From contig JARBJD010000019.1 of the NCBI GenBank assembly GCA_033064195.1, positions 372,001 to 436,000 of the forward strand: a stretch of 64,000 nt of DNA. The letters run 5' to 3'. The stretch is from Blattamonas nauphoetae (lineage: Eukaryota; Preaxostyla; Oxymonadida). The notes under the pieces are model-generated. The model was not told the origin of the DNA, did no database searches, and worked only from the letters and a program-made list of their open reading frames with translations. This document shows, piece after piece, positions 960-55,900 of the stretch; the first letter of the stretch is position 1, and each line of letters begins with the position of its first letter. A program made the position numbers and the translations under genes.

Positions 960-2888
960 TTATGTGAGGTGAAAAATTATTTTGAGTTTTTTTTCGACGT
1001 AGATTCGGTTTTTGCCACTCGTCAAAATGTCTTGATTGTGGATGTTGAACCGAAACTTACCGAAATTGATGAAATGGAACAAGAAGTTGAAAATTCGAAA
1101 CTTGTGGAGATTGAGGTAGAACGCTTCTAGATGGGCGAAGGATTCTGGGATGCGATGGAGGATCTTAAATCGAAGGAAGTCCATAACTTCGAGGCGATTA
1201 CAAAGAAGAATTAGCCCCAATAGGGAGAGATCTACTTCTGAGTGAATGATTTCGTCGAATGATGCGCTTTATTGATTCCGAGTTGGATTTTATGAGATGG
1301 ACGGAGGGCTTTACCGAATAGTAAGCTAGTGGCGAATTAAAAGTTGAATATTCGATGGAGAATGGGATTGTGATGTATTTGTCACAGTTCACATCTAAAA
1401 CATAATAGGCTCGGAGTTGGCCACTGATAAACCGAAGGGATAGGTAATCCTTAATCCATGCAATTGAGACGGATGGAAGAATATCCGATTCTGGAATTCT
1501 AACAATATCAAAAAAGTGATTTGGTTGGAGGTGACCAAAAGCTCTTTCGAGCTTGAAGAAATTGAGGAGGTCTGTGATGTTTAAAATATCGCGTTGGTGG
1601 ATTTGGTCGCGAACTGTACGAATCAATGTCCCAAATGCTCCAGCACAGATATTCTTTCCGTGTCCCTCATGGAAATAATTGAGTGTTGTGCTTTGATGAA
1701 GTGAAGATGAGGGTTGTCGGAAGAGGCAATTGTAATTGTTCACACGATTTCTGAAGTGAGGGCCGCAATCCGACCAAAAGTGAATTGTATGGAATTGTTT
1801 GAAGAGATTTGTGTGTCTTAGTTGTTATAAACAGAATGTGGTGAAACGGGCGTCGTGTGTGGTACATTCAGAAAAGGCATGAAAATATCTTTTAGCAAGG
1901 GTCCGATCTGAGTCGACAGACAGGAGAGTAAAGCACAAATGTGATATCTGTTGATTATTTTAAAATTGATGTGAAGCTTGGTTCTGGGTAATTGAAACTT
2001 TCCAAATCTCTTTCTAGTCATCCACCACAATTCCAGTTTCTGAGTCCAGATCGGCAAATATAGAATTGAAAGTCTTCCGTTGAATAGTGGCACATGTGAC
2101 ATGCATCTCTAAGGCTTTTTGTTCTGCAAGAAGGGCTGGCGGAATTCTTTCTGCCTTCTGTACGAGTGTGATGATGTCTCTATTGATCCTCTCCAGACGT
2201 TCACAGCGATTGCACACGTCCGTTCTTCGTTTTGTTCGGGTTAGTGAGCGGCAAGTTTTTCTGAATGTAGTTAAAGATATTTGGATGTTCGGATGGTCTT
2301 TGTGAAATTGAAGAAAGAGATCTTTGAGAGACCCTCGGTACATTCGTTGCTGCCAAGTCCATTCCAAGATGAAAGCTCGTGGATTGTTTGGGTTGCGATC
2401 AGGATCGATGAAGAGTTGATCAACAACAACCGTTTCGTCAAATTCAGGTTTGATTCTTTGTTTTGGACACTACCAGTTTCTGTCGTGTGATCCCTCAGCC
2501 ATTTCCAAAGAAGAAGTCTGTCAAATACAGAAGGAAGTCGTTGTAGTCGAGGTTTGGGGCACTGTTTCTCGATGTCCATATCACGTTCTTTTTTTAAGGC
2601 GATATGGTTGTCTCAGATCGTTCTTTGAAATTTGAAATCCAACTCGAATCAACTGTGAGAATGAAAATGATGGAAGAATGTGTTCAAACCATAAAGTTCC
2701 AGTTCAAGAGTATTGCGGACTCGAAGTCCATATTTTGAGCTCAAAATTGTATCCTCAAGAAGAGCATCAGGATATCCACCAGAGATCTGGCGAGCCGCTT
2801 GAAACAGGCATTCCGCCAGTTTACACTTCTCTGAAGTCGATTTGATGTCAAATGATGATGAGGTCATGATCGGCCCAAACAGAGACAT
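960..2888 (-). mobile_element. Decayed DDE-type transposase copy
   Basis: The minus strand carries scattered open stretches in several frames that line up, in the same order, with the fuller copy at 41692-43715. Matching blocks are RRTDVCNRCERLERI (about 2175-2230), a DD.KE.WKVSIT block (about 1990-2020), SDCGPHFRNR (about 1740-1775) and HEGHGKNICAGAFG (about 1640-1680). The SDCGPHF and HGK..C...FG blocks look like the acidic core of a DDE transposase. The copy has several frame changes and stops, so it is presumably inactive. I recognise the conserved blocks as transposase-like but cannot name the superfamily with certainty. A continuous stretch after the HGK block (down to about 1200) remains open. 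Confidence 0.6.
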
Positions 2889-3008
2889 TTGTCAAATTTT
2901 TGCCCAAATGCCACCCCTATACTGACAGCCTCATTCTGGAATTAGATGAAGAAAATGATGAGATAGTCGTGAAGTGAAAAAGAAGATAGATGAAATAAAA
3001 TCAACATA

Positions 3009-6000
3009 TTATTCGTCGGCGTCACAATCGTCCCATAATTCTGTGAATAGTTTTTCAGAAACATCCTCAACAATCGAGTCGAACCATGGGCCTTCAAAGG
3101 CAATATCCGTGCGAAGAAGAGCCCATGTATCCTCCATACTTTGTAGATCTCTGTCAAGCTGCCGAAAAACAGAATTCATCTCCTTTTCTGTGTCAAACCC
3201 GGAAAAGCCCGTTCCTCTCCCACATTTGGCTCTCATGATCAGACTGTTGGCACGCTCGCCATTCCAATCATCGAAATTGCATCCATCCAAACCATCCTGT
3301 CCAGCCACCATTTCCACAATATCGGTTAATTGCTCTTTTGGGATGTGGGTTGCCTGCGAGATTGGAAGAGGCAGCTTCCGAAACTTCTGTTGTCCCATCC
3401 TCACAAGACGAAACGGTGTCCCCTCCACCTGATTGTGGAGAGGAGTTGAGAGTGTGTGAATCATTCCATTCGGTTGGATGTGTCGTCCACTGTCCATCGG
3501 CGTGTATGACCCGATTTGGGCAACCGTCGAAGAGAAAGTCAATCCAAGCGCCGGCGCAGGTGAGAATGGATCGGCCAGTCTTCGAGAAGCAGGAGATCGG
3601 AAGGCTGTCAATGTTTGACCAAATATTTGAGGAGTGGTAATGTTGATTTTTGTTTGGTTGTCGTTTTGATATGGGTCGAGTGATTTCCCGCTTGCGATGG
3701 CGATGTGTGTGACGATCTGATGAATGAAGCGAGAGGAGTCGATAATGAAAGGAAGGAAGGAAGACGAAAGAGCAGAGACATCATCTGGTCTCAGACGCTC
3801 TTCTTCCTTCTTCATCTCTCCCAATGTCGTCCAGACGAGCTCGGGGAATGGTTGGATGGAGAGGCAATCGAGCGGAGAGAAGAGTGGGCCGATTGTGTAT
3901 GTGTCGATAATCTTGACGCTCTTCTCGTTCAGCTGGATTGGTTCTGTGTCGACTGGGGATGCCTGATCGATGAGATTGGTCCGCTCGTTCAGCATTTCAA
4001 CAAGTTTCCTTCTTTTCAAATCTGAAATCAACCATGTCCTGTCCTCTGCTGTCCGTTCCCGAATCTTCTTCATCCTCTCTTCAATCCGATCGATCCACTC
4101 CACAAACCAATCTCTGATCGCAGTCAGAATCGCTCGCTCGTTCCCGTTGAGCTGCAGGCCTTGTTGTTCCTGCTGTTCATCATCCTCCATTCCGATGAAG
4201 AGATCGCTTGTGACCTCCTTGCTCGTCCACTCAATCGACATCCGACCAGTTTCCAATGCTGTGTTGATGATCGACATGAACAGCGTTGAGAAGAGCGGAA
4301 ACGGAACCAACCCAACACGTTTAGCCTCGTCAGCAATCCCTTCAAGGGATGACAACTCATTTTCCATTCTCTGTCTTCGTGGAGTGTCCTTTGTGGGTGT
4401 GTTGTTCATCTGTCGTTTCAGTTTGAGCGTACTATCCAATTCGATTGAGATTCCGTCCTGCGATTTCCGAGTGAATCGAGCGATGACTGCTGGTGACAAC
4501 GTGTTGCTGATGTTGACTCGGAGCGACGAGGACTGTGGGGTGGACAGTGACATGGAGAGAGGGAGGGAGTTCCTGCCGAGTGTCGGTGAAGGTTGAGTGG
4601 CGGCGAGGAAGATGGGAGACGAGAGGACAGAGTGTCTGTTGATGAGCGGAGTCGACACATTCAACAAGTTCATCTCATCCTGCTCCTTATCCCCTTTCCA
4701 AGGCCCTGTATCATCAGATCGTGCTGATTCTTGTTCTTCTCGAATATCTTCCAGGCCAAGTCGAGAGATCTTTTCGGTGTGGAGGTGGTCGGCGAGGATG
4801 AGAAAGTTGTCCACATTCTGTCTCTTCCAAGCAACAATTCCATCCCAAATCGTGTCCACACAATGAGCACTGATCTGTCCGATGTCGATCAAGTCCCAAA
4901 GAATCGATTTTCTGACATGGGCCTCGTTGGAGACAAAGCTACGATTGTCATCTGAAGGGAAATGAAGAGAAGGAAAAACACACCCAATCCGATGAGTTGA
5001 TCGGGATCGAAACTTGAAGTTCGGCGAACGAGGAGGGGAATGTCGGAGATGTCGCTATCGTCTTCGAGGAAGGCTTGCTCTCCGTCATCATCCAGCGGCG
5101 AAGAACGCCCATCGTTTGGTGAGAGTTGGAGTTGTTCTGAGGTCTCTGCGTTTGATGCTCGGGAGTTGACTTCTTCACTTTCGGAAGGCACGTGCTCATC
5201 TTCCTCCCCCTTCTCTCTTTCTTCCCCTTCATTTTGGAGCTTTTCTTCCTCTTGTCTCACTCGCTCTTCCTCTTCCTTCCTGAGTCGTTCTTCCTCCTCT
5301 GCCTTTTCACGTTCAATCTGTTCCTCTTCTTCTTTCTGTCGGTGTTCTTCTTCCTCGCTCAGTTGATCCTCTTCCTCCTGTTTCAATCGTGCCTCTTCTT
5401 CTGCTTTTTCCTGTGCCATTCTTTCGTCCTCTTGTCTCTGCTGTTCCTCTCGTTCCTTTTGAAGTCGTTCCTCTTCTTCTTCTCTTGCTCGATCTTCTTC
5501 CTCCTTTCTTCTTCTCTCCTCTTCCTCTCTCAATCTCTCCTCCTTCTGAACTCGTGACATCCTGTCAATTTCGAGTGAGTTGATTGTTTCAACAATTCTG
5601 TTTCTGAGGAGTGTCAGTTCCTTCTCGCTTCCAACCAGAATCATGTTGTGTTGTGTGCCGACCAGCTCGTCCTGGTTCCGAACTTGCATGACACCCAAGT
5701 CTCGTCGGAAGAGGGTCTGCTTCAGACGAGGGATGGTGCGGAAGGTGGGGTGGGATGGGGTGAAGATGGCGTCGTGTTTGGTGTTCACTGAAAACAGAAG
5801 AGGGAAGGTTGTTGTGTTTGTTTTTGAGAGTGTGAGATGAGCAGTTTTGTGTGGCAGGCTCTGCATCATCGCCAACACGACATCCGAAAACGAAGAGACA
5901 AATGAATGTGAGGTTGTGTAAAGAAGAGGGAAGAAACAATGAAGAATGAGGAGTGGCTCAGTCTGCTGTTTGATGAACTTTGAAAAGTGTTTGTGCTGGT

Positions 6001-9000
6001 TGATCACCTCTTCCGACACAACAGCAAACGAATCGTTGAAGAAGTAGAGCATCAGCTTGAAGTCCTTCTTCACGGCGATCGGGCTCTTCATCACTTGTGC
6101 CAGCACGCCCTTCATTTTGTTCTCGTCTGCGCTGTCTTTCGACTCGTCGTCGGCCTTCGCCGGAATCGAGACGTATCCAATCAGCGGCATCTTGCCAATC
6201 AGACGGCGAGTGGGAGTGATGATCAGATCCGCCTCGATCAGCTCTTTCTCGTCCACACCCTGCTTCAGCTGCCACTTCTTCATCCCCTCGAAGAAGTTCA
6301 GCACGCCCATCCTCTCCGCACTCTCAAAGCACGTCGAGTTCACACTCTCCGCCAGCTCCCCAATCGACGCGAGTGCCTTCTCGATCTCAGCGTATTGCGT
6401 GTCCTCGCGGTCGGTGTACTTGAGAAGCTGCTCCAACAGCATCTTGTACCGCGGCAGGCGCTGGACGGGAAGGATCAGGAACGACTCAATCGGGAAGTTC
6501 TCGCTTTTCGGGTTGTTCGAACACGTTTTGAAGAAGGTGCACAGCTTCTTGCTCTTCTTCTTCGCCTGTTCGAGCGTGGCCATCGCGCGGGGGTAGTTGT
6601 TGACGTACGGTTTGTAGCAGTTCAGATACGCCGCCATCTGCGTGATCACCGGCCCGATCGTGTCGCCGCCCTTCTTCTCGACGCACTCGGTCAGCTCCGA
6701 CAGCAGCACTGTGTTTGTGTTGAGGATTGTTGAGATGGGTCCGAAGATCGATTTGAGTTGGTCGTCGCTGATTCCGAGCTCGTCTTTCTGTTTTCGACAC
6801 GGCTCAACGAAGACAGACACAAACACAGACAGCTGCGAGACGTAAGTTCGCTCCGTCGACAGAATCTCGTTCAGCACGTTCAGTCGGAGCGAGGGCGGCT
6901 GGCGGTGGGAGGCGGGCGAGGCGTGTGAGGAGATGTCTGGCGACGGGACGGGCTCGGTGGAGGTTTCGAGAGGAAGGGAGGAGTCGGAGGGGACGACTGA
7001 GGCTGACTCGAGTTGGTCGGTTGATGGTTCATGTGATTGGTCTTCGGCAGCTCTCCTGAGTCGTTCATCCTCTCCTTCCTTTCGGATCCTCTCTTCCTCT
7101 TCTCTTTGTTGCCGTTCTTCTTCTGCTTGTTCTCGAGTGACTCTTTCTTCTTCATCCTTCTTCAGTCTCTCCTCTTCCTCTGCTTTCATTCGAGACAGCA
7201 CTTCTTCCTCTTCTTTTAGTTTCAGCCTCTCTTCTTCTCTTCTCAATCTCTCCTCTTCCTCCTTTCTCAGTCTCTCGTCTTCTTCAGCTTTTTTTCGAGC
7301 AATGCGTTCTTCTTCCATCTTCACTCTTTCCTCATCTTCCTTCCGAAGTCTCTCCTCCTCCTTTTGGATTCGTTCCTCTTCCTTTTTTCGCACCCTCTCT
7401 TCTTCCTCTTGCTGCACTCGCTCTTCCTCTTCTTTCCTGATTCGTTCCTCTTCTTCTGCTTTCTCTTGAGCAAGTCTGTCTTCCGCTTCCCGACGCTTCC
7501 TTTCTTCTTCATCCTTGCTGTGTCGTTCTTCCTCCTCTGCCTTTTCGCGTGCAATTCGTTCTTCTTCTTCCCTTTGCAGGCGCTCTTGTTCTTCTTGTCG
7601 CATTCGCTCTTCCTCCTGTTTCAAACGTGCCTCTTCTTCTGCCTTTTCCTTTTCCATTCTTACGTCCTCTTGTCTTTGCTGTTCCTCTCGTTCTTTTCTC
7701 AGGCGTTCCTCTTCTTCCTCTCTTGCTCGCTCCTCCTCCTTCTTCCTTCTTCTCTTCTCTTCTTGTTTCAGTCTCTCTTCCTCCTCTCGTCTCAATCTTA
7801 CCTCTTCTTCTGCCTTCCTGGCTTGTTCTTCTTGTTCCGCTTTCTCCCGTGCGAGCCTCTCTTCCTCCTCCTTCCTCAGCCTTTCCTCTTCCTCCGCTTT
7901 CGATCGAGCCAGTTGCTCTTCTTCCTTTCGGAGTCTTTCTTCTTCTGCTTCTTTTTCTTGGGCAGGTCGCTCTTCTTCTTCTTCTTTTCTGAGTCTTTCT
8001 TCTTCCTTCCGCTTTCTTTCTTCCTCCTTCGCTTTCTTCCTGAGCACTTTCTTTTGCTCTTTGCTGCTTCTCTCCTGTTCTTTCTGCTGTCTTTTTTCTT
8101 CTTCCTTGCGCTTCTTCTTTTCTTCTTCATCTGCCTTCATTCGGGAATACCTCTCCTCCCGCTGTGTCTGCAGTTCCTCTGCTTGCTTCAGTTTTTCCAC
8201 TTCCTGTTTTAGTCGTTCTTTCTCTTCATTCATCTTCCTCTTTTCTTCTTCCATTTTGGCTCCTTCTTCCGTCCAAATCTTCAATCTCTCCTCTTCCTCA
8301 CTCTGAATGCGTTCAATCTCCTTTCTCAACCGATCTGTCTCGTCCTTCCATCTTCTTTCTTCTTCCTCCCTCCTTTTCTCCTCTCGTTGACAATGCTCTT
8401 CCATTTTCTTCCGAAACGTCTCGTCCAGTCGATCTCGCTCAGCTTCCAGATGTCTGTTCAGCTGGTCGGTCATCTCCTTCTCCTTCGCAACGAACTCTTC
8501 CCCGAGTCGACGTCGTTCTTCTTCAAATTGCCTCGACTGCTTCTCGAGGAGCGCTCTGGCTTCCTGTTTCTCTGCTTCATCATTCTTCTTTCGACTCTCC
8601 CATTCCTCTTCAGTTTTTGCGAGTCTTTCCATTTGTTTCCTCATCCGCTCCATTTCGAGTGCCATTTGTTCATGTTCCTTTTCCTTCCGCGCACTCTCTT
8701 CCGATCGGAGTCGCTGATCTTCATCCAACTTCCGTTCCCATTCCAATTGTGTCTTCCGCACTTTCTCCATCTCTTTCAGAAGCTGGTCTCTGTCCGCTTG
8801 GAGTTGTCTCTTCTCTTCCTCCAGGAGATCACGAGCAGTGGCAAGCTCGAGTTCGATCCGATGCTTTGTGTCGGATTCTGCTCTTCGTGCTTCTTCCTCT
8901 TGTCTCATTCTCTCCTGCTGTTCGATAAGATGTGTGTCGCTTTCTTTCTTTCGAAGTCGCTCCTCTGTCTCTTTCCTGGTTCGTTCATCCTCTTCATCTT

Positions 9001-10390
9001 TCTCTCGTGTGAGTCGGTCAGCTTCATCTTTCTCCTTCTGTTTCGCTTCTTCTTCTGCCAGCTTTCTTCTGACTTCTTCCTCTTGTTTTGAACTTCGGCC
9101 ATCATCTTCCGTTTTCTGAGTTTGTCTTTCTTCCTCCACTTTCCTCCTTTCTTTTTCTTTAAGCCTCCTGGTTTCTTCATTCCTTTTCTCAGAATCTTCC
9201 TCTTTCTCAAAACTGGCTTTTTGTGGTTCCCGTTTGGACACGTCGAACAGTGACGAGGCACCAGGCTCAGTTTCAACATGAGGAACATCGTTTTTTCGAA
9301 CATCTTTTTGTTCAGTCGCCACTCCCTTCTGATCGTCTGAAAGGCGACATGGAACAGTTGAAGACGTGTTTGAAAGTTGATATGATGCATCGTTGAACGA
9401 AACGATTGGACGTTGGCGCTGCTGATGTGTTTTTCGTTTGGATTGAGATTCGTTCATTTCAGGATGGCGATTGTAAACAGAAGGCAGAGAAACAATTTGT
9501 TTGATGTGATTATCCATGCTGATTGATTCATGAGGTTCAATTTCAAGCGACAAAGAAACTTGTTTCGAAGGAAGTTCGCCAGATTGTTTGTTGAATCTGG
9601 GCGTGTCTGTGAAGCCAATTTCATTCGATATAGACGTCGAAGTGTCTCTATGAACATGTTTTTGGTTGGATTTCATGGGAGAATTGTGGTCTTTTCCCTT
9701 CTTTGGCGAGTGAGATCGTGAGACATTTCTCGGCTTTGATTTGGAAGAAGATGAACGTGAAAATGTCTGTCGTCTCGAAAAACCACCTAAACGTGTGTTT
9801 TTCTTTGATGAGATATGCTTTGGTGGGCTTTCACGGGCAGAAGATTCCATACGGATAGAGTTTTCGTAGGAGTCGTCAATTACTCTGGAATTTTCATGAT
9901 TAGCCTGAGAAGATGGTGAACTATCACATGGAGGGATTCTTTCTTCTGATGTTCGTGGTCTCTTGTGTTTTTCTTTCGTCTTCGGAGAGTTTTGATCGTG
10001 TTGTTTTGATGGACTGGCCTTTCTGGTCTTTGGGGGAGTATTGACCATAAATGTTTCAGGATCTGATAATATAGCACTCCTTTTCCTGGGCGGTGTGGAA
10101 GTTGATGTCGGAATCGCTTCAACATTTGAAGTTGACTCAAATTGCGACAGTTGAGTTTCATTCAATGGATCACTTTTCTTTGGAGGCATCAGTGGACTTT
10201 TTCGGCAGTTTTGTCGGAGTACATCGCTGTATGCTGCTAGGAGCTGCAGTGATGTTTCCCGCTTCTTTCTTTGGGCAGCTTTTTCCTTTTTGTCTTTGTT
10301 AAGGTCTTGATATGCTTTTCTTGCGCGGATTCGTTGTTGTTTCTCCTTTTCCTTAGCAGATAGTTCAGGAGGCGGCGGTCTAACATTCAT
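3009..10390 (-). CDS. RhoGEF (DH-PH) protein within very long coiled coil
   Basis: Two exons (10390-4984 and 4951-3009) joined over a 32-nt GT-AG intron (4983-4952) give 2449 residues. The start is the ATG at 10390. Residues 1-380 are basic and Ser-rich, and about 390-1115 are dense E/K/R coiled coil. About 1165-1345 is a Dbl-homology domain: LNEILSTERTYVSQL matches its first conserved helix and LPVQRLPRYKMLLEQL is the signature of its third. A PH-like region follows (about 1365-1605), then a second coiled coil (about 1610-1760) and a 650-residue C-terminal part without a recognised domain. DH-PH proteins load GTP onto Rho-family GTPases at membranes or the cortex. The GEF role is a family inference; the coiled coil suggests a scaffold or cytoskeletal site. 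Part of the coil is shared at DNA level with the gene at 52970-58179. The PH part contains a loop rich in Ser/Thr that could hide another small intron. Confidence 0.85.
7533..7716 (-). repeat. 184-bp tract identical to 55806-55989
   Basis: By reading the two stretches side by side I find no difference over 184 bp, in the same orientation, between this part of the RhoGEF coiled coil and the coiled-coil gene 48,273 bp away. The shared peptide includes QRQEDVRMEKEKAEEEARLK. Flanking sequence to about 7840 remains similar but carries substitutions. Synonymous sites are also identical, so this is copied DNA and not merely a similar charged peptide. Confidence 0.85.
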
Positions 10391-10662
10391 AATGTTCAAT
10401 TCGCACCGAAAAGAGAAAAATGAATTCTTTTGGCAAAAGTGATCCTAATTAAGGATAATTCCTTCTAGGGACCACACAATGTGAAGTACGGTTGAATCTG
10501 TCAGGAAAGGCAGCCTGTGATGAAATTCCTCCTTTTGAGTGTGGATTGAGATCTAACCCACAACAAAATGGGAATCTTTGAAAAGAATCAAAAAGAACTG
10601 ATCAAAATGTGTGAAATGCTTCAAGAATGTGTCCACATGTAGACGGCTATAAATAAAAAATA

Positions 10663-19049: not shown

Positions 19050-22000
19050 TCAATATGGCCAACGATCGAGAAGGGATTTGCCTTCGTTGTCTTTCATTTG
19101 GTGGATGTTTAAATGGTCGTTCCGCATATGGCCGAGGAGCGCCGTGGATAGGAGTTGTTTGAAACAGAACGGGCATTTCTTATTGAACGGACGTGTTTGA
19201 TACATTGAGACAAATCTGCATCCACACAAATGTTCCATCATGTCTTTTACTGCATAATTGCGATCGCAGAATGGACATTTCACTGTCATTTCCAGATAAA
19301 GCTGTTTATGGCGTTCACTCACATGTTGAAAAACCTCGTCCTGAGTTCTGAGAATGACTAAACAGTGCGTACAGAACAAGTCTGGTTGTCCGTTTTCGAG
19401 ATGACGTCGTAGATGATATAAACTGTCTGGTACTCCCGTTACTCGACAGAGAAAACATTGCTGTTTATTGTCAATGCTTAGTTGTGTGCTATTGAGGTCA
19501 GACTTATGGCATTGTTTCAGATGGTCAAGGAGCAGATTCTGAGAAGTATAAGTGCGGATTTGCAGACGGTTGAGTGACGACTGAGAACAGAGGGGACAAT
19601 AGAACGGGTCTGGCTGAGCTTTCGGTCGACATTCATTCACGAAATGATAGAGGAACGTTTCTGGAGAAGTTCGTTGGACACAGAAAGGACATGATTCGCT
19701 TTTCTGACTATTTTGATCTCTCTTCAAATCCACTTCACTCGATTTCGCATTTGGGCGATCTCTCCATGCTTCTGACAAGAGTTGTTCTGCTCTCTTTCTC
19801 TCTTTCGTCAGTCCGTGATGGCCTACCAGCCGTCGCATTTCATTCCAATCTCGGCGGAGATTGGGATGTTGGTTATCCTCAAAGCGGTGGAGAGCGGCCT
19901 CCTCTTTCTCAATGTGATCCAGAAGCTCGATAAAAGTCATTTCCTTTTGGCAGAAAGGGCATTTCACGGATTGTGATTGAGACGGAAGGGGAGTTTCTGG
20001 TCGGGAGTAGCAACGATACATGTGAGAAACCATTCGAGATAATTGACGGTCACTGTTACAAAGTGGGCACGCAGCGGAGAGTAAGAGAAGTGTGGTGTGA
20101 TGGCTGGACCGGAGATGCGACGTAAAGTCGCGTTTTGAGAGACGTGCCTCACAGACTGGGCAGGCAATCTGTGTGTTTGAATACCGCGTTGTCATGTGTT
20201 GCTGGTGGAAGTGAGTGATGAATGCCAATCGTTGCATTGAGGCGTCGCAGAACGGGCAGATAATTTCAGTGTGTCTGTGTTTTCTCTGTCTGTCCAATTC
20301 TTCTCGTTCTCTTTTCTCCTTCGCTTCTCGTTCTCTTCTTTCCTTCTCTTCTCGTTCCCATCTCCAAACTTCTTCCATTTTCTTCTGTTCCTCCATCGCC
20401 ATTTTCTCGGCCTCCACATCGCCCCCATGCATCTTCTGAACATGCTCCTCCATCTGATCAATCTCCACAGCCACCCCACAATACTGACATGTCATTTTCA
20501 CTTTCTCCTCCTTTTTTGCTGCCTTCCGTCGAAAACGGTTCTGAGCTGGCTGTTGTTGGAGAGGTGATGGTTCTGTGACGAGTTCTAACGATGGAGAGGA
20601 TGTTTGTGGAAGTGGTTCTGGAGCAGGGTCAGATAGAGGTGGAAGGTCGATGTTAACCCTTGATGGGAGGGGTTGCGTTGGTTCGAGTCCCTCTTCTGTC
20701 GGGTTTTCCTGACGCGTGTTTGAATTCGGCCAGGGATGAGCAGTCGGAGTGGACAGACGTGGGGCTTCTTGCGTATTGACTTGAATCTGATCACGATCTG
20801 TCCATCTCTGATTGTCATCCACCGTATGTTCACCTGTCCCGTGTCCATTTTCGTCTTTTCCTGTTGTGCCCCGCTCTTGCTGGCGTTTGTTAAATCGATT
20901 AATTTGATTGGGTTGTTGAACTGGTGTTGGTACCCCCATCGGTCTCGTATTCTGGCGATTTGTGGTCCCTACGGACGGCATAATTGGCTCTGGACCTTTT
21001 GTTGTTTGGCGAAGAAGGGTGTTGTTCGTGGAAGTTGGTGTCGTCGGTGACGGGGCAGCTTTCCAGCCTGTCCCAGCTCCATGATCGTCCACGACCATCT
21101 CAACGGTAGTTGGAGCCTGGTTGATCTTTTTAGTCTCCACACCACCCTGTGGCACTGTTTGATGACTTTGAGGATTGTAATCTCCTGTTTTGAGTTGGAT
21201 GAACTCCATCCACGGAAGTTGGAGGGCGTTGGGGTTGATTTGTGGGTAGTCAGCAGTGAAGTATGGATGGTTCAGGAGGTGATGTCCAAGGGTGTCGATG
21301 CGATCAGCTGGATTTTGTGCGAACATTCTGTGGAGGAGGTCGCTGAGATGTTGGGAATTGCCGAAGTGTGTTGTAAGATTGGGATGATAGAAATTAGGGC
21401 CTGCTTTGATTTTTCTGAATTGAAGAAATATGGGGAGGAAAATGAAACCTATGCAGTTCGAGCATGGACGCTGTCTTGAAAGGGTGTCTACAAACGCATG
21501 AATTGGACGGTAAATGAAGAAACAAACTCTCCTGTCAACATCTCGTAGAATATGCACCCTGCAGCCCAAATATCCAGTTTTTGGTCGTAAGGTTCTTCAT
21601 TTATGGCTTCAGGTGACTATTTGTGTAGGAACACGTGGTTAAGCACCAGATGTGGGAGGAGAAAGAAATGATAGGAGAAATGGAGTGAATAAGGAGACTA
21701 TCGAACGTCATACCATGTAGAGAGGTGTTCTAATTAAATTGAAAGAGGGAGATCACGAAAAATATGGTTTACACACCCACAGACTGTGTTATTTGTCCTG
21801 TCGATGGACCCTTGCTCCCCAATTCTTTTTAGGAGACCAAAATCCGAAATAACAAGCCGAACACTTTGACTTTGTGGATTATAAGCCAACAGAAGATTGT
21901 CTGGTTTGATATCCCTTCAAATGAGTAAATGGGACAGCGAGAAAAAAAGTGAGGCGAAGTCCGAATGGAATACCGATGGATGAATCCATTTTGATGAAGA

Positions 22001-22751
22001 TCTGTCAGTCCAGACACTTGTTGAAGCCAGAAAATTAAAAATAAGCAGGGTGGATATTGTTTGGACGAGAGATGAACGAATGAATGAACTGGCAGACGGA
22101 GCATGTAAAGAACTCGCTTCGCAAGATATTCGGGAACTCCTCCGTTCTCATTCGCTTTGATAATGTCAGAGAGGTTCTGTGGATTCATGGGTAGATTGGG
22201 AAATAGTGAAATCGATGATGAGAACTGACAAACTCCTTGATCGGCATATTCAAGAAACAAAACATGTTGGTCTCCTTGACTATTCACCATACAAGAATGA
22301 ACTTCAAGGATGAACGGGTTTGTGATACTAACATCGGGAGGAGAAGACAGGGAGGAGCGCCAGATAATGGTTGAGGCAGAGAACAGAGTATAGAAGAACA
22401 TAAACAACCAATTATATAAACAGATGGCTTTGGAGAACAAACTTGCAGGCCTTTATTTTCGATGCGGTGTGATACTCGGCGAGGGCGACCGCAGAATTGT
22501 TTATCACTTTAGCTGCCAGGTATCTCCCTTGAAGAACAACAATGTACACTCTACAGCAAAGGTGAGAAGAGGAGAGAGACATACCGTCCATATTGTCCTT
22601 GGCCTTTCAAAAGAAGGATTAGAGTATTTGAGAAATGAAAGTGGTGAAAAACACGACAAACCCAAGGCAGCATATTCCTACATGACTGTAAAAAGAAAGA
22701 AAGGCAACACACTGTGCATCCACAAGCCATAAGAAGGTCAACGTCCGTCAT
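19050..22751 (-). CDS. Ser/Thr protein kinase fused to ~11 C2H2-type zinc fingers
   Basis: Nine exons join in frame into 1072 residues from the ATG at 22751: introns 22584-22551, 22442-22328, 22233-22177, 21973-21915, 21776-21730, 21713-21617, 21527-21488 and 21448-21415, including a 16-nt exon (21729-21714). Kinase landmarks appear in order across the junctions: glycine loop GQGQYGRV, catalytic Lys in AAKVI, HRDIKPDN, DFG, GTPLYMSPEA with both halves of the activation segment supplied by separate exons, DIWAAGC, and the HPYF end of the C-lobe (to about residue 340). All catalytic residues are present. A Pro/Thr/Gln-rich linker follows. From about 590 to 1065 there are about 11 CPFC- or CPLC-type fingers (C-x2-C, then H and H or C). 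The kinase is closest in style to NEK/CAMK-like kinases. Fingers of this short type bind zinc and often act in ubiquitin, RNA or protein binding; their role here is unknown. A further intron near 22105 in the helix before HRD is possible. Confidence 0.85.
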
Positions 22752-28177: not shown

Positions 28178-31100
28178 ATGGAAATCCCACCTCGTGTCGA
28201 TGAGGAGCGATCCGTTGCGATGTCGCAGAGCTCTCAATTCTCCACAATGCAAGCACTATCTGTTGCACGGTTTAAACCGATGGAACAAATGTCTGAATTC
28301 GCTCTTATCACTTATTCTTCTTTTTGCAGGCTCTTTTTCTATGCATATCCCCTCTCTCGTGTATGTACTACCGATATCTTCCGCGTTTCATCTCTTTTTG
28401 ATCATTTATCTTGAATTTTTTCACTCGTCTCCTCGTTTTCAAAGCTTTTAATATTATTCTTATCCTAATCACCTTTCCACACCTTCGCACAGCATCTGCA
28501 ACTGCCTCCAACAGCAGGATTTGTGTTCTTAGCGTTTATGCTTATGCAATGGATCGGCCTCACCTCAAAATTCCACAATTGGCCCGTATCTGGAAAATTT
28601 GGCGAACTTTTCTTCGGCGTTTTCCAGTATGTTCAATTTCCTTCGAAATATATCCTTCATTTCATGGACATAACTCATAATTCTCGTTCCCCCGATTCAA
28701 CCGTCCATCATCTCCTTTTCCTGTCTCCTCTTCCAGCTATCTTGATTTTACGATTTCCTGGAGTAAAAATTCCGTTCTTCTGGTCTTTCAAATAGTCTTT
28801 CTCTGTATCGTCATCATGTTCACCGTATTTTCAACACTTTGCGGTCTCATGGCCCGATTCGAGAAACCTCTCCCCAAAAAGCAGGTACGTCCAACCGCAG
28901 TGCTTGGCCGAGTCCTCTTCACAATGTTTGCTCTCCCTGCAATCAATGTCTCAACTGGTTCCATGCAATGTCTGACGAATATGGGCCACCTCCCCTTTGA
29001 ACTGACCTGCTCGTCGTCCAAACCGTTTTTCATTGCTGCCGGAATCGCAATCTTCTTTCTGATGATCACAGCGGGGTTTGTGTATCACATGTTCGTGTAC
29101 GAGCAAAACATGGTTTCTAAAGACCCGTTTGCCGCTCAGACTAACATCCTGCCGACACTCCTCTACGTCGTTGTTGGTATTCTAGCATTCATTTCTCCAC
29201 TATTTTCGAACAATGTGTTGATCTTTGGGATCCTCTGCGCCATCACATTCCTCTTCTTCTGCCTGCTTTTCTGCTTTTATCAACCATTCTATTCTATCAT
29301 GGGACAAGCTTTGTATTCCTCAACCCTCGCTATAGCATTTGTCTCCTCATTAATCACCATTTTGTCCTGTTTTATCAACCCACCAGACAAGCCACTTTCT
29401 GTCGGTTTCTCGATTATGTTTATGCTGCTAATGCTTCTTCTTGCGTGTGGAGTTGCATTTGGCGCCTTTATCTTGACAAAGAAAATCGCACAGTCCAGGT
29501 TTGCAGTTAGACCAGGAGAGGCCATCCCTTATCTCCCCCAAAGCAAAAGCTTCTCCTCAAAGTCCCAAACCACGCTCTTCTCACTTTCTTCTGGCACACC
29601 CCGCCAGGTCCAGGTTCAGGAATTCACTCCTTCGAACTCCCCTTCGGTTCGATCAAGACCAGTCGCCGTGCTCGACCTAAGCGAGTCATCGGCGTATAAC
29701 GAAAGCATTTATGTCACAGAAAACCAAATTTCGTCAGCTTCAGGTCCTCAAACCACTGTTCCTCTCTCCGCGTTATCAACAAACATGTCCACACAAGAAT
29801 GTGTGTCGGAGTGTGCCGGAGACTTCCTTCTGAGTGAACAGAAGCCGATTGCAAAGACACATTCCAATCATGTTGTGGTTATTGAAGAAAAAACAGTCAA
29901 AACAAACGAAATCAGTCCGCGATGTCTCGATGAGGAAATGGAGGAAGGAAACATCACACCAGACCCAGAACCGATGCCGGAAAACATGCCCACAATCAAG
30001 CTCCAACCGCCAGTCGAAGTGTCCACCCCGACATTCATCGCCTCGTCTCGCCTTCCCATCATCACACAACCAATCCCTCCTGCCCAGCCGACCTCGACTC
30101 GCCATCCACTCGCTGAGCCTTCAACCACCCTCCCTCGTCTTCTCTCTGAACAGATCAACCCCCCGCGCACTCTCCCGAAGTTCAAGTCAGTCAAAGAGAT
30201 CCAGCGCGCGATTCGCTTCGTTGTTGACCCAGAAATGCTGAAATCTGAAGCCCATCTTTCGCTCGTCGAGCGGATTCTTGATTGGGGGATTCGACGCTTC
30301 CCTCAATCGTCGTCGCTTTGGACAACGAACGCGCTCTTCAATCAGAACGTTCGGAACAACACTCTCCGCACTGCAGACGCCTTCCAACACGCGAAACAAT
30401 CAGTTCCACACATCATCGAGCGCTGGACGCAATTCGCATTCATTCGAGATGTGGAAGCGAAAGAGACTTCGGAAGGCGAGCAGAGTGCATCAGCCTTGTT
30501 TCGGTCTCGAATGGATCGAGGTCAGAGGCAGCACGAAGCAGCCAAGGCCTATCTACGACAAGTCTACACACAACTCTCCAAATCCAGTTTTGATGTTCAA
30601 AGAGTGCATGCAATGCTCATTTCCGCCATCGAAGCCCTTCGCTCTTCCCGCAAGCATTATTCGAGACTTCTCCAGCAATATCCATCCAACCCACAGGTCC
30701 TCCGTGGATATGGCTCGCTTATTCGGGACATCGAGAGAGATGACGACACGGCACGGATGCTTCTGAACAAGGCGACGCAATTTGAGGAGAATACCGATCA
30801 GCTGGAAACGATGGATTTGAGCCAAGAAGGGGATATGATGTCACGTGTGGATGGACGAGATCAGCAACGAGCACCGCAGAAGAGACAGAGACGGAACAAA
30901 AAGAAGAAGAAGAACTCACAGCATGTCATGGATGGGTTCTCTTTCCCTGACGACACGCCGCCCGTCACCACCGTTCTGACTGTCCTCACCATCGCTCTGC
31001 CGATTGTCATCGTCATCGTCCAGTCGATTGCGTATCTATTCACTTCGAACTTCTTCCGACTCACCATTGCACAGACTGAGGTGGTTTTCAAAATGTCCAA

Positions 31101-33888
31101 CCTCCAACTTAACATGGCTCGCATGCTGCATCACGTGGAACTCTGGAAGATCGTTCATTCCGACGCTGTTGTCACGAATCCGTCCCTTCTCACCGAATGC
31201 AAGTATCTGTTGGCTGTGGAAGAGATGGATGAGAAAGTTTCCGAATCGGCGGAAGAAATTGAAGAAGGGCTGTACGACTCGTATAACACGATTCCTGAAG
31301 AATCGCGCTCACTCTTCGAAGTTGTGAACAACACGATTTACTTCGCGCAGGTGAACAACGCAGATGAGATGAGCAACATTTGGGGAACACAGATGAACAT
31401 GCTCGACTTCGCGCTGAACATCCAAAACTCGCTCAATCACATTCGAGAGTATGGCAATCCAAAGGAGCGTCTCACACAGAAGGAGATCTACTGGCTGTTT
31501 CTGAACGCGCCAGTGATTGGGATGGAGATGATCAAAGGCACGTGTGTCAACTTGTCTGACCAAGTGCACACCCTGGCCAGTTCAACCGGACTTACGAATA
31601 TTGTGTTTGCCATCATCGTCATCGCAATCACGATTTATCCGACGATGTATTGTTTCGTTCGCAAGTCGTTCGATTTCAGAAAGAACAGACGAAAGGCCTT
31701 CTTCAAGTTCGTCACTGCTCCAAAGAAGAGAATCCTGGAGCTGAAGAAGAGACTGGACGATTTGGAGAAGGACGATGACTCGACTGTTGAGATGACAGTC
31801 AACACGAAAAGCGGAGATGAAGAAGAAAACATTTCAGACGCTTCTCTGAGCGAGACAGACGAAGTGATGGAACTCTCAGTTCTCTCAACCAAACCGCCCA
31901 CACCAAACAAACGACTCTCCAACCAACCACAGCTGCTTCGGAGTCCAAGCGAACTGCTCCGCGAATTGAATCTCCCGTCAGCGTCGCCCATAAACTCAGT
32001 TTATCAGACACCCGTCCTCACCTACTCCAACGGCGAGCCTCCCACACTCCCGTTCGAGCCAGAACCAAACGAGAAGAGAAGCAGTCTGCTTCGATCGATG
32101 CAGAACACGCAAAGTATGCCTCATCTCCAGCAGCATCATGGCCACGTCCTCAACCCACAACTCAGTTCAATGTCCGAGCTTCCACGTTACATGCCCCATC
32201 CACCAAACGCCACTCGCAACACGTCCAGTCTCGCACAGTCGATTCCAGTGATGTCTTCCTTCCCTCTGCAGGACAGGAACCCGTCTCCCATCCAACAGAA
32301 CGTGGTCGAACCCACGCAAGCTCAGCCAGAGCCAGAAAAGGAAGAAGAGGGGACAAATGCAAAGACAGACAAGGAGGAGCAGGAGATGGAAGAATTGCAG
32401 TTCAAGATCGACAAAATGCCAGGCGTCCTTCCACGCTCTGTCTGCTTTGCGTTGGTCTTCTTCCTCGTTGTCTCGTGGGGGTCGCTTGCTGGCTTCTTCT
32501 TGACTTCCATCACAACAGTGTATCAAAGTGATGCTCAGCGAAACGCTGTCTTCCTTTCGAACTATCGCTCGTCTCTTCTCGATCTGATGACATTCCTCGC
32601 GCTTCAGATCGTCTTCGAGCCAACCGCTGACCCACCAAAGGAATTCTCTCTCAACTCGTCCACTCGGCCTGGTTGGAACGACTTCTCTCATCTGAAAATT
32701 GACGACGAGGAGCACCAGAAGAACATTGCCACTCTTCTGTCATACCTCCTCACCATCCATCGCAAAGTCAAAGAAGGGTCAGCTGACCACGCAAGCTACC
32801 TCACCGGCGACGAGATGATCGATCGATTGGACACTGTGCGAACGTTGGAGAAGGGGACGCAGTTGTATGCCATCACAATGGATGCGAGGGAGTGTTTCTG
32901 GAAGGCTGGGATTCGTGGTAGTCCTGAACCTGATGAATGTCAGGACGGAAGGATGGTTGGGATTGCTGACTCGTTCATGGGATTGGAAGGACTGATGACT
33001 GCGTTTGCTTCAGCAGCTGGGAATGTTGTCTCGATGAAAGATCCTCGGACGAACCTCCTTCCGCAAGACCAGAGCATTCAGTCCATACTGACCATCCAAG
33101 AATATGACCTCTTTAATGGTCTCGAGTGGTTCACGTCTGTCATGCTTGAAGAACTCACTACCGAACTCACAACACTCGACCAGACTGTGATGCTTGTGTC
33201 GCTTTCCACCATCGTCACCCTTTTTCTCTGCTCGCTGATCTGTCTGAGACAGGCTGGCAAGAGAATCTCCAACGTCGAACACAACACACTTCTCATCCAA
33301 AAGATGGATCCAGCCAACGACAACACTTTGCAGGGGTTAGAATGGTCTGATCAATACATGTGTGAGATCGAGCTGTTGGATGAGGGCCACGCTTCAATCT
33401 GCAAAGCGGCAGTGTCGCTGATGCGGAAGATGGGTGAGGACGGATGGGAGAAGGCACGCCGAGCTGAATTGAAGAAGTTCTATGTCGTTCTGTTGAGTGT
33501 GCTCGAGGAAGAGGAGGTACTGATGCAGCGGCATTCAGTCGGACGTGTTCTCATCCGCTCGCACCAGCGACAGCACGTCCACATTCTGAAGAAAGTGAAC
33601 AAGAGCATCTGGCAGCTCTATCAGAACACCCCGCAAAGCCAGCATTTCTTCGTTTCCACTATCAGCGCATGGTTGACAGAACACGTTGCGAAGAGCGATC
33701 GAGATTTGGGGGCTCGGCTTGAGGAGAAGATGACGGAGAGTGAGAAAGAGGAATGTGTCAACAAAACCGATTTTGTGATTCCACGCTCGTTCCGACAGTT
33801 CCTTCAATCCGATCATTGCAGTATGAAGGACAAGAAGTCATTTGAGAAACTCTTGCAGCTCCTGCGGCTGCATGCCAGCGATCTCTGA
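28178..33888 (+). CDS. TmcB-like large multipass membrane protein
   Basis: Four exons (28178-28290, 28330-28360, 28493-28626, 28737-33888; introns of 39, 132 and 110 nt) join in frame into 1809 residues. The N-terminal third has about ten hydrophobic helices (for example TILPTLLYVVVGILAFISPL-like and ITFLFFCLLFCFY). Residues about 590-780 contain a helical half-a-TPR-type region, with HYSRLLQQYPSNPQVLRGYG and RDDDTARMLLNKATQFEEN, which is the hallmark of the TmcB/TmcC family of protists. Further TM helices occur near residues 840, 1050, 1330 and 1580, framing large loops rich in Pro/Ser. The family is named from Dictyostelium macrocyst genes; biochemical function is unknown, membrane sensing or cyclase-linked signalling has been suggested for relatives. 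No cyclase domain is present here. The exact first exon is inferred from splice signals. Confidence 0.75.
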
Positions 33889-38650: not shown

Positions 38651-38877
38651 TCATTCGTTCTCGTCCTTCCCTTCCACACCTATTTCTATCCATCCTCTTT
38701 CTCTTCTCCATCCAACTCTTTCTCTTCATCTTCTCTGTTCTCCATCACATCTCTCTTCATCTTTTCCTCCTCTCCTATTTCTTAAAAATGATTCAATTCT
38801 CCAAGTTAGTCAATAAATTTCAGAAAAAGTTGATCAAACCCTTTTTGAAAAGTTACGAGCAATGACATCCTAATTAG

Positions 38878-38901
38878 GCGCTGTCCGAGGACGGACAGCG
38901 C
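38878..38901. repeat. GC-rich perfect hairpin
   Basis: GCGCTGTCCG and CGGACAGCGC form a perfect 10-bp stem around an AGGA loop. A second palindrome, TTGTCCGGACAA, follows about 10 bp later. Both lie at the start of the reading frame homologous to the mariner transposase N terminus. Confidence 0.7.
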
Positions 38902-39982
38902 CTCACCTTGTCCGGACAATTGCTCCTCCCTATCGTGTTCTTATTGAACATTGTAAACGTCAAGAAATGACGTACACTCAAACTCATCGTCACTTAAGTT
39001 TCTACTGGCCAGAAGACGCCCCATGTCTCGAAACCTGCCGAACTGTTTTCAAAGAACTCGATGCCGGAACCTTCACGTACACAGGGAAGAAACCAAATCA
39101 CCATCGCGAAAACCAGCGTCTCATTGAAGCGCTTCAACGCATTCTGGACGAAAATACCCATTATTCCCTTCGACATATGTCGAAGATCACAGGAGCTCAT
39201 GTTTCAACAATTAAAGGATGCTTATTCTGTCATTTCCACCTCGTAAAACGTAGTCTGCGGTGGGTCCCTCACACTCTGAATGACCAACAGAAGCAAGCAA
39301 GGGTTCAAGAGGCCACCAGACTGATTGCAACTCTCGACTTTCATTCCAATTTTAACTATCAAATGCTCTTCACTGGCGATGAGTCATGGATTAAATATGA
39401 CTCTCCTTACGATTTTGAGTGGATGAGAAAAGAAGATGAGAGACCAACGCGTGAAAGGCAAAATATCGGAGCGAAGAAAGTTATGTTGACCCTTTTCTTT
39501 TCTCCCAAGTTGTTTTTCACCCGTCTCCTTCCAGCTAATCAAACAATCAATACGGACTATTTCCAAAATCAAATATTATCGCCGTTACGAAATCAATTTG
39601 ATGCCGAAATGGGAGAATTCTATCACAACATGCCGATCGCTCTGCACATGGACAACGCACCGTCCCACAATGCTGTTTCAACACAGCATCACCTCACACG
39701 ACTCAACATGACACGAATTCAACATCCAGCGTATTCCCCAGACATCTCTCCTTGTGATTTTTGGATTTTCGGTTCACTGAAGGCAAGTTTAAAAGGAAAT
39801 CACTGTCAGACCGCAGAAGAGCTCCAGATTTTAATCAACAACTTCCTTCTCACTCAAACAGAAGAAATGCGTCTCCGCGTGTTCCGCAATTGAGAGCAAG
39901 ATGTGAAGAGGTGGTTCTCCGCCAAGGAGACTACTTATAACGTTTTTCTTTGATTCAACTCATTTTTTCAGGATACTCTGTA
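38878..39982 (+). mobile_element. Mariner-type (DD34D) transposase gene
   Basis: An open frame from the ATG at 38967 to 39893 gives 308 residues with the mariner order: a helix-turn-helix part (SLRHMSKITGAHVSTIKG), the linker LRWVPHTLN, catalytic Asp in TGDESWI, second Asp in HMDNAPSHN, and third Asp in YSPDISPCDFW, with 34 residues between the second and third Asp. Homologous sequence (YRVLIEHCKRQE) extends upstream of this ATG in frame to about 38880, so the true start is lost or lies in an upstream exon. At the 3' end the frame meets TGA directly after VFRN, where the family has Trp, and continues EQDVKRWFSAKET. The protein is thus cut about 15 residues short. TACAGAGTATCCTG on the minus strand at 39982 resembles the terminal repeats at 35179 and 44135. 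Confidence 0.85.
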
Positions 39983-52969: not shown

Positions 52970-55900
52970 TCAAGATTTGTGGTTCTTGGCTTTTCTTCGT
53001 GAAGTCGCATCTGAATCGCTTTCAGATTGAGAATCAGACGAAGCAGATCCATACGAAGATGAATCAGAGCCGCTTTCGCTCCCATAGTCGCTGTCAGAAT
53101 ATTCCGACCCATAATACGATCCCGACGACGAGGTGTAGTACGAAGACGACGAATCCGAGTCCGAGTTCTCGCTGTCACACGACTCAGACCCTGTCTCCTC
53201 TTGGATCGACGGTGTGTTCGAGAATGCCCCTCGAATTGGTCCATTTTGCCTCCAACCACCCATCTGGTACGATTGCATCATCCGCTGGTGCATCAGCAGC
53301 TGTGACATCGGTTGTCTGGACACCATTGGGAAAGAGGGCTGTGCCAGAAGTGGCTGGGATGGCCTGCCAGCGAACATTGAGTTCGCACCTGTGATGGTCG
53401 GGCGAGACGAGCGCTGACTGCTGGCGGGGTTGATGGGACGAGGGGGAAGGAAGTATGAGTTTGGTGGGAACATGGATGGGTCGATCTGCCGCTGCTGCGC
53501 CATTTGGAGGTTCCTGCTCTCCTCGTGCTTGCGAAGGCGTTCGGCAAGCTCCATCACTGATCGTTTCTCAATCTCCTTCCATTTCCGTTCTTCCTCTTCC
53601 TTCTTCTTGACGTCGTCATTCGACGCATTCAGCACAGAACGTGTTTCCTTGTCTGTTTCAGAGCGAAACGTGTCTTTCCGGCGATGGCTGCGTCGAGAGG
53701 TGTTCCCATCCTTCTTCCGAGACGATCGCTTGGTTCGTTTGGAGTGCTTCTTCCCAAAATCATGGGTGGTCTCTTCAGTGACTGGGGTGGTGAGCGGGTT
53801 GAGAGGAGGGATGGATGGCTGAAGTCCTCGTTCTTTTGGTGTTTTGGGGTCGGTGCTGTCCTGCTGTCTGTCTCGTTCTTCCTCGTTCGGTTTGATGTCT
53901 GGGTCGTGTTTGTCTGGTTGTTTCGAATCTTTGGTTCTGCTTCCTTTGCTCGGTGGACGCTTTTTAGCATCCTCGGATTGAATAATGATGACTTGTTTCT
54001 CCTCCCTTTCCAATCCCTCTGCCTTGTCGAGTGAGTTCGTCGGGGTGATGTCTGCATCCCTCCCTTTCTCCACACTCTCCTGTGCCTCTTCTGTCTTTTC
54101 TTGGAAGCGTTTTTCATCCTCTTCCATTTGTTGTCGTCTTTTTGCATATTTCCGCTTCCGCTCGTCGTTCTTCATCCGCTCCTTCTCTTCGTACTCCCGC
54201 GTCTGTCTATCCCCTTCTTCTTTCCGTTTGCGCTCATCTTCCTCTTTCTTGTTTCTCTCCTCTTCCTCCTTTCTTCGATGTTCCTTCTCCGCTTCTTCGT
54301 TTTGTTTTTCCTCCTCCTGCTGCCTTTTCTGTTTCTCTTCTTTTTCTTCTTCATCTTTTTCAACTCGCCTTTCCTCTTCCATCTTCTTTTGCTTTGGTTC
54401 AGACTTTTCCTTTATCTTCCTCTCCTCTTCCTCTGCCTGCCGTTTCTGTTCGTCCTCCTTTTCTTCTTTCCTTTTTCGCTTTTCTTCTTCCTTCCTGAGA
54501 GTTTCAGCCTCTTCTTCTTTCTTTCTCTTCTCCTCTTCTTCTTGCCTCTTTTTCTCTTCTTTTTCTCTCTTCTTTCTTAAATCTTTCTCTTCTTTCCGTC
54601 TTTTCTCGTCTTCCTTCTGTTTCTTTTCTTCCTCTTCTTTTGCTTTCTTCTCTTCCTCTTCTTTTGTTTTCTTCTCTTCTTCTTGCTTCCTTTTCTCTCT
54701 CAGTTCTTCTTCTTTTGCTTTCTTCTCTTCTTCTTCTTTCTTTCTCTTCTCCTCTTCTTCTTGCCTCTTTTTCTCTTCTTTTTCTTTATTCTCTCTCAGT
54801 TCTTCTTCTTCTCTTGTTCGCTCTTCTTCTTTCTTTCTTTTCTCTTCCTCTTCTTTTGTTTTCTTCTCTTCTTCTTTCCGTCTATTCTCCTCTTCTTTCT
54901 GCTTCTTCTTTTCTTCTTCTCTCTGTTTCTTTTCTTCCTCTTCTTTTGCTTTCTTCTCTGCCTCTTCTTTCGCTTTCTTCTCTTCTTCTTGCTTCCTTTT
55001 CTCTCTCAGTTCTTCTTCTTTTGCTTTCTGTTGTTCTTCTTTCCTTCTCTTCCTCACTTCTTGTAACCTCTCTTCCTCTTCTTCTTTCTTTCTTTTCTCG
55101 TCTGCTCTCTTTCTTTTCTCCTCTTCTTCTTGTCTCTTTTTCTCTTCTTTTTCTCTCAGTTCTTCCTCTTCTTTTGCTTTCTTCTCTTCTTCTTTGTGTC
55201 GTCTCTCTTCTTTTTCATCTTCTTCTTTCTTTCTCTTCTCCTCTTCTTCCTCAACTTTTCTTCGTTTCTTCTCTTCCCTGCTTTTCTCACGTATGATCCT
55301 TTCTTCCTCCTTCTCTCTTTCTGCTTCTTCCTCCCTTCTGTTGCGAACCGTCTGGTCATTTTGTTCTTTTTCTTTTTCTTCATCCATTGTTGCCTCCTCC
55401 CCTTCTCTCACTGATTTTTCAACTTCAAAATCTTTCTGTTTGCTAAGTATCCCCTCTTCCTCTCTTTTGCCTTCATTCTCCTTCCACTGTTCTTCACCGC
55501 TTGTGTCTCCTGTCTCGGTCTGCTCCAAGCTTGTTCCATCCTTCAGTTCATCCCGGGCAACGTTCTCTTTATCTTCTTCTCCTTCCTCTTCGCTCTGTCG
55601 ATCAACTAAACCATCCACCTTGTTCTCCATTTCAGCTTTGTTGTCATCGTTGTCTGTGATTGCCTCTCTCATGACCACTCCACTCCCGTCTGCTTCGCTG
55701 AGCGAGTCAATCAGAGGTGATGTTTGATCTGGTTGGTTCTTTTGAGCAAGTTGGTCTTCCTCTTCCTGACGCTTCTTTTCTTCTTCATCCTTCCTGAGTC
55801 GTTTTTCCTCTGCCTTTTCGCGTGCAATTCGTTCTTCTTCTTCCCTTTGCAGGCGCTCTTGTTCTTCTTGTCGCATTCGCTCTTCCTCCTGTTTCAAACG

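Follow-up and report, generated by a model that had tools for sequence, protein, structure and literature searches.

A 64,000-nucleotide stretch of the Blattamonas nauphoetae genome (assembly GCA_033064195.1, contig JARBJD010000019.1, positions 372,001 to 436,000; hereafter the window) carries on its minus strand, at 22751-19050, a protein kinase that is followed by a row of zinc fingers. We lean towards interpreting it as a single real gene, one member of a serine/threonine (Ser/Thr) kinase family whose C-terminal array of Di19-like fingers would dock protein partners. Read at the level of sequence, the catalytic motifs are intact, the end of the kinase and the fingers lie in one exon, the architecture is repeated in the genome and the zinc ligands are kept. 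B. nauphoetae, a flagellate, is an oxymonad, and oxymonads have been described as gut endobionts (PMC10703272).

Splicing of the minus strand by hand at GT..AG sites gave 12 predicted exons and a protein of 1014 residues, starting from the ATG at 22751 and with the stop codon ending at 19050; introns 1-11 of this model measure 34-115 nucleotides each. These figures replace the nine exons and 1072-residue product proposed in a first-pass annotation of this DNA. Its placing of the kinase-finger junction inside a single exon was borne out and is repeated in paralogues. The last exon (2365 nucleotides) is one open frame that contains the end of the kinase C-lobe and every finger, so a mis-splice does not account for the join; an open reading frame (ORF) of 848 amino acids (aa) in the window runs from the kinase end through the array. 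The N-terminus, MTDVDLLMACGCTEYAALGQGQYGRV, is similar to the deposited paralogues P0006, P0007 and P0008, and alignments to paralogues are often interrupted at the exon borders of the model (residues ~60, 92, 118, 132, 179, 184, 214, 227). The parts of the gene, in window coordinates, are:

19050..22751, minus strand: coding part of the whole gene, with 12 exons and 1014 aa (GT..AG splicing by hand; paralogues have a similar N-terminus and matching intron positions); partly deposited as BLNAU_4099
21449..22751, minus strand: exons 1-11 with introns, coding for the N-terminus and most of the kinase (spliced model)
21246..22677, minus strand: protein kinase domain together with its introns, running from exon 2 up to residue 283, with G-loop, Lys39, HRD, DFG and SPE (motifs and Pfam)
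19050..21414, minus strand: last exon, with C-lobe end, linker, finger 1, charged stretch, array and stop (spliced model, ORF)
20505..21245, minus strand: linker, residues 284-530, rich in P, T and Q by eye (spliced protein)
20427..20489, minus strand: finger 1, residues 536-556, CQYCG...H....H, preceded by NRFRRK (spliced protein)
20277..20417, minus strand: charged E/R/K stretch, residues 560-606 (read from the sequence)
19800..20258, minus strand: finger module A, fingers 2-5, CxxC at 613, 645, 676 and 712, with LRRDWNEM near the module end (sequence, Pfam, self-comparison)
19059..19691, minus strand: finger module B, fingers 6-11, CxxC at 802, 833, 880, 908, 940 and 974, C-terminal HQMKDNEGKSLLDRW (sequence, self-comparison)

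The kinase domain matched Pfam Pkinase (PF00069) with an E-value of 2.9e-50 (171.6 bits against a cut-off of 31.7; residues 15-279 of the spliced protein). It contains the G-loop GQGQYGRV (residue 19), LAAKV with Lys39, HRDIK (132), DFG (157), MSPE (184), DIW (199) and HPF (215). All of the motifs on which an intact Ser/Thr kinase had been proposed are in place, and the kinase is predicted to be active. When the domain was compared with the Protein Data Bank (PDB), the top rows were labelled arginine kinase (6vvg), PKA-type, CaMKII and ULK1; Nek7 and Aurora C lay no more than ~10 bits away, and scores were flat across several kinase groups. An IRE1-like kinase, our first impression by eye, was rejected given the spread of the PDB matches over several other groups.

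Beyond the kinase come the linker, finger 1, the charged stretch and ten CxxC fingers. The linker matched no Pfam family above its cut-off, and the finger 1 region was also matched by paralogues where no array was found. By reading, rather than by any coiled-coil score, the charged stretch is likely a coiled coil. At two paralogous loci, L040 (~1990-3000) and L045 (~2600-3300), it is expanded as 24-base tandem repeats, REREEKER-like in L040, which suggests that its length varies freely. The 11 CxxC starts (residue 536 in finger 1 and the ten in modules A and B) each have plausible third and fourth ligands downstream by eye, with fingers 4, 6 and 10 reading as C2HC. A finger pattern gave 10 non-overlapping matches in the 848-aa ORF (200 composition shuffles: mean 0.155, maximum 2), and Pfam zf-Di19 (PF05605) matched six stretches of the protein (E 5.1e-24, 84.7 bits against a cut-off of 27.5); the earlier count of about 11 short C2H2/C2HC fingers holds. 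Among 16 array pieces of the family, at E<=0.01, zf-Di19 matched all 16, CEP104_ZnF (PF21039) 10, the classical-type zf-C2H2_4 two, and zf-TRAF and RNF220 one each. AlphaFold2 modelled module A as beta-beta-alpha units, with predicted local distance difference test (pLDDT) values per 10-residue block of ~78-90 in fingers 2-4 and 74-83 in finger 5; module B modelled alone (225 aa) was of low confidence (pLDDT 48.7).

Self-comparison showed that residues 606-790 and 791-1014 are alike (E=1.7e-11, 47.4 bits). None of 200 shuffles that preserved Cys and His positions reached that score, the shuffle maximum being 30.0. In paralogue P0006, the second of the two proteins covered by this test, the array has the same internal similarity in a longer form (E=5.4e-16). 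The sequences thus show the array to be built in part by duplication of a multi-finger module. Between paralogues, Cys and His were kept more than other residues in all 9 array pairs compared (0.77-0.96 against 0.23-0.78), although the gap is small in some pairs (lowest 0.77 against 0.65); for the window and locus L042 the counts were 41/50 and 81/352. The ratio of non-synonymous to synonymous substitution rates (dN/dS) of the arrays was 0.43-0.64 in 8 of the 9 pairs, the ninth being saturated, which indicates moderate purifying selection on these sequences. Compared with P0006, whose gene lies at L042, the window protein is 65% identical in the kinase and 30% in the array; in this pair the array has therefore changed more, with most zinc ligands kept.

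A search of the whole genome (88.3 Mb, 837 contigs) matched many relatives, and 26 loci, the window's own included, were fetched on the basis of these matches. The family kinase was found by tblastn at 22 of them (exceptions L040, L044, L053 and L061), a count biased by the selection, which relied in part on a query containing the kinase end. Arrays of at least five pattern matches, summed over ORFs, were present at 15 of the 26, and at 12 of these 15 the family kinase lay upstream on the same strand. Two of the other three (L040, L053) have no family kinase within the fetched DNA, and L061 has, by eye, only a degenerate C-lobe. Kinases with few or no fingers within the fetched DNA were seen at L039, L045, L047-L049 and L056-L060. 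With zf-Di19 alone, a search of the genome produced 17 matches, which fall at 15 distinct loci; this set overlaps with the 15 array loci but differs from it, and 12 of its loci also carry the kinase. One open frame covering the array and the kinase end, the latter recognized by eye, was also found at L038, L042, L046, L050, L052, L054 and L055. Among deposited models, P0003, P0006, P0007, P0010 and P0011 combine Pkinase with zf-Di19, and P0006 and P0010 are continuous from the kinase through the fingers; P0005 has both domains too, yet its kinase is of a different type.

Other arrangements were seen beside these. Locus L043 (C157:212000-219500) has a second kinase at ~3534-2900, minus strand, between finger 1 and the array. 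This kinase is a member of a different large family of Blattamonas, of which P0005 is a deposited example, and the locus may be either a double-kinase gene or the site of an inserted gene. Outside the window on the same contig, ~35 kb off and in the opposite orientation, lies a partial kinase copy (C101:355941-356695, plus strand) in which the matched residues 25-172 are 79-91% identical by exon. It is probably the deposited BLNAU_4094 (P0014), which continues into other sequence. By eye, the deposited paralogues P0003, P0008 and P0009 also appear mis-joined.

Proteins related to the kinase region were sought under a length rule of ~558-1774 aa. Among the best 120 of 1416 matches, 12 were named Blattamonas, six of these with PF05605, and none of the 108 others among those 120 shows PF05605 among its listed Pfam domains, which are incomplete for some. 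The array region retrieved four proteins, all from Blattamonas. An alignment search of the protein database gave no matches, but this is not evidence of absence because it also missed P0002 and P0003 of Blattamonas, whose lengths were probably in range. The first-pass annotation had looked to relatives for the fused form: it recurs in paralogues of the same genome, whereas no orthologues were found elsewhere, and limited protein-database searches, with the presence of other oxymonads there unconfirmed, returned no fused relative outside Blattamonas. Judged by these matches, the family combining a kinase with a Di19-like array has so far been seen in B. nauphoetae only. For this species, individual database entries that carry the domain pair already exist.

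No publication on such a family was found in a literature search that lacked most subscription papers. In the genome paper (PMC10703272) "zinc finger" occurs 0 times and "kinase" twice, neither on the family. Neither "zinc finger" nor "C2H2" occurs (0 times each) in the main text of the Giardia kinome paper, which mentions RING domains, or in that of its Phytophthora counterpart, which mentions FYVE and ZF-B. One paper that names both Pkinase and zf-Di19 assigns them, in the passages concerned, to different genes. The first-pass statement that no comparable family was known holds in part. A published table already lists kinases with zf-C2H2 in trypanosomatids (2, 1 and 1 genes), along with Aurora-classed kinases with a zf-C2H2 domain in other kinomes (PMC1266030), so that the unusual feature narrows to the long array.

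If the protein is a docking kinase, as we favor, the finger array and finger 1 would bind partner proteins, and the charged stretch may dimerize the protein or bring molecules together. The kinase, presumed active, would then phosphorylate the docked proteins, and differing arrays on more similar kinases would give each paralogue a different partner set. Resemblance of the fingers to those of Di19, KCMF1, RNF125 and CEP104 favors protein binding over DNA binding. The first-pass annotation had guessed that the fingers may read ubiquitin or RNA, whereas the sequence neighbours tend towards protein binding.

Several observations weigh against this reading, some touching the gene model and others the array. 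The nearest database protein, BLNAU_4099 of B. nauphoetae (P0002, 725 aa, 99% identical), begins within the kinase C-lobe and so leaves out most of the kinase. It also departs from our frame within finger 9, with an alternative tail that maps to 18907-18796, and omits part of finger 9 and fingers 10-11. Since the deposited gene models were built with RNA-seq hints (PMC10703272), a shorter transcript is possible. At the paralogous locus L038, the frame across the supposed intron of P0002 is similar coding sequence, and we consider the deposited ends to be probably prediction errors; the public annotation hides the kinase of this gene. The truncated model would also suit two adjoining genes, or a kinase relic beside a finger gene, fused in our reading only, as would the unrelated second kinase beside the array at L043 and the kinase-only copy ~35 kb away. 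Such an arrangement is very improbable given the exon shared by kinase end and fingers, the constant order and strand at 12 of 15 array loci and the uninterrupted deposited models P0006 and P0010.

As for the array, CTCF, a DNA-binding array, was the sole Foldseek match at E<=0.001 and stood second in the profile search of PDB sequences, which makes nucleic-acid binding possible. Foldseek ranked CTCF and TFIIIA arrays first. A kinase with sequence-specific DNA or RNA binding, its array working like a classical C2H2 array, is nevertheless unlikely: the top fold match covers little (template modelling score 0.08 by query length and 0.13 by target length) and any beta-beta-alpha array might give it, the linkers are long and irregular with no TGEKP-type linkers seen by eye, three fingers are C2HC, and zf-Di19 prevails over zf-C2H2_4 among the array pieces. 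The same profile list was led by RNF125 (4.7e-07), with KCMF1 (0.0016) and RAD18 (0.008) at lower ranks and DI19 and CEP104 further down. VIA-align placed KCMF1 at the top, a weak fold match (Z 5.3 over 58 residues). Together with the single zf-TRAF and RNF220 matches, these results would fit a ubiquitin-pathway kinase, in which the array would recognize ubiquitin, degrons or partners that carry modifications, in the manner of RNF114/125/166 or KCMF1; we rate this as improbable too, at much the same level. Two further points count against the docking reading: the link between DI19 and KCMF1 rests on a C-terminal pin region, which joins the UBR4 complex, and not on the fingers (PMC7618180), and the window protein itself has no CEP104_ZnF match at E<=1 in the Pfam search.

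Elsewhere in the window, four further ORFs were noted:

4889-10444, minus strand: 1851-aa ORF with a RhoGEF domain (1.8e-47) and, by eye, a long charged coiled-coil-like stretch
28681-33888, plus strand: 1735-aa ORF with a TmcB-type TPR match (1.2e-13) and, by eye, hydrophobic membrane-like segments
38874-39893, plus strand: open transposase-like ORF, 339 aa (Pfam Transposase_1 6.8e-09, DDE_3 1.3e-07)
52970-58105, minus strand: very long E/K/R-rich ORF, lying in a region where the strand skew is extreme (AT skew of -0.799 for 54001-56000)

Among known systems, proteins of the Di19/KCMF1/RNF125 class share the PF05605 finger type with the window protein, by sequence matches and weak fold matches. 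To our knowledge none of them has a kinase domain or more than a few such fingers, and CEP104 is not known to be a kinase either. CEP104 has a C2HC-type finger array, and its finger family recurs in most array pieces as given above; unlike the window protein, it has four fingers and a tubulin-binding TOG domain, and its array binds CP110 and the coiled coil, not the kinase domain, of Nek1 (PMC5222566). Membership of the window protein in CEP104 was rejected, as neither TOG nor CEP104_ZnF was matched at E<=1. The trypanosomatid zf-C2H2 kinases likewise join a kinase and a C2H2 finger on one polypeptide, but the table has one or two genes per species, and the accompanying section gives no finger number and mentions no expanded family (PMC1266030). 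Closest in design are the Giardia Neks, in which 133 of 198 genes have ankyrin arrays of 1-26 repeats (PMC3218828). There too an N-terminal kinase is followed by a variable C-terminal repeat array, some members have coiled coils, and the family is large, dynamic, metamonad and accompanied by kinase-less related proteins (PMC3218828). The repeat is a zinc finger here and ankyrin there, and our kinase, with its flat scores, was not placed in Nek. By this analogy, the family array is predicted to be a protein-docking module that works like the Giardia ankyrin arrays. More tentatively, and with some doubt, we suggest that oxymonads evolved their own large docking-kinase family with long, self-duplicating Di19/CEP104-like arrays, a zinc-based counterpart of the ankyrin-array Neks of Giardia with a separate origin, in which array turnover would re-aim a more conserved kinase. 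The usual interpretation of long zinc-finger arrays is that they bind DNA; if our reading is true, kinase-attached arrays at a dozen loci in one protist would represent a different use for them, and would be the second example among metamonads of kinases that expanded as fusions to arrays of repeats.
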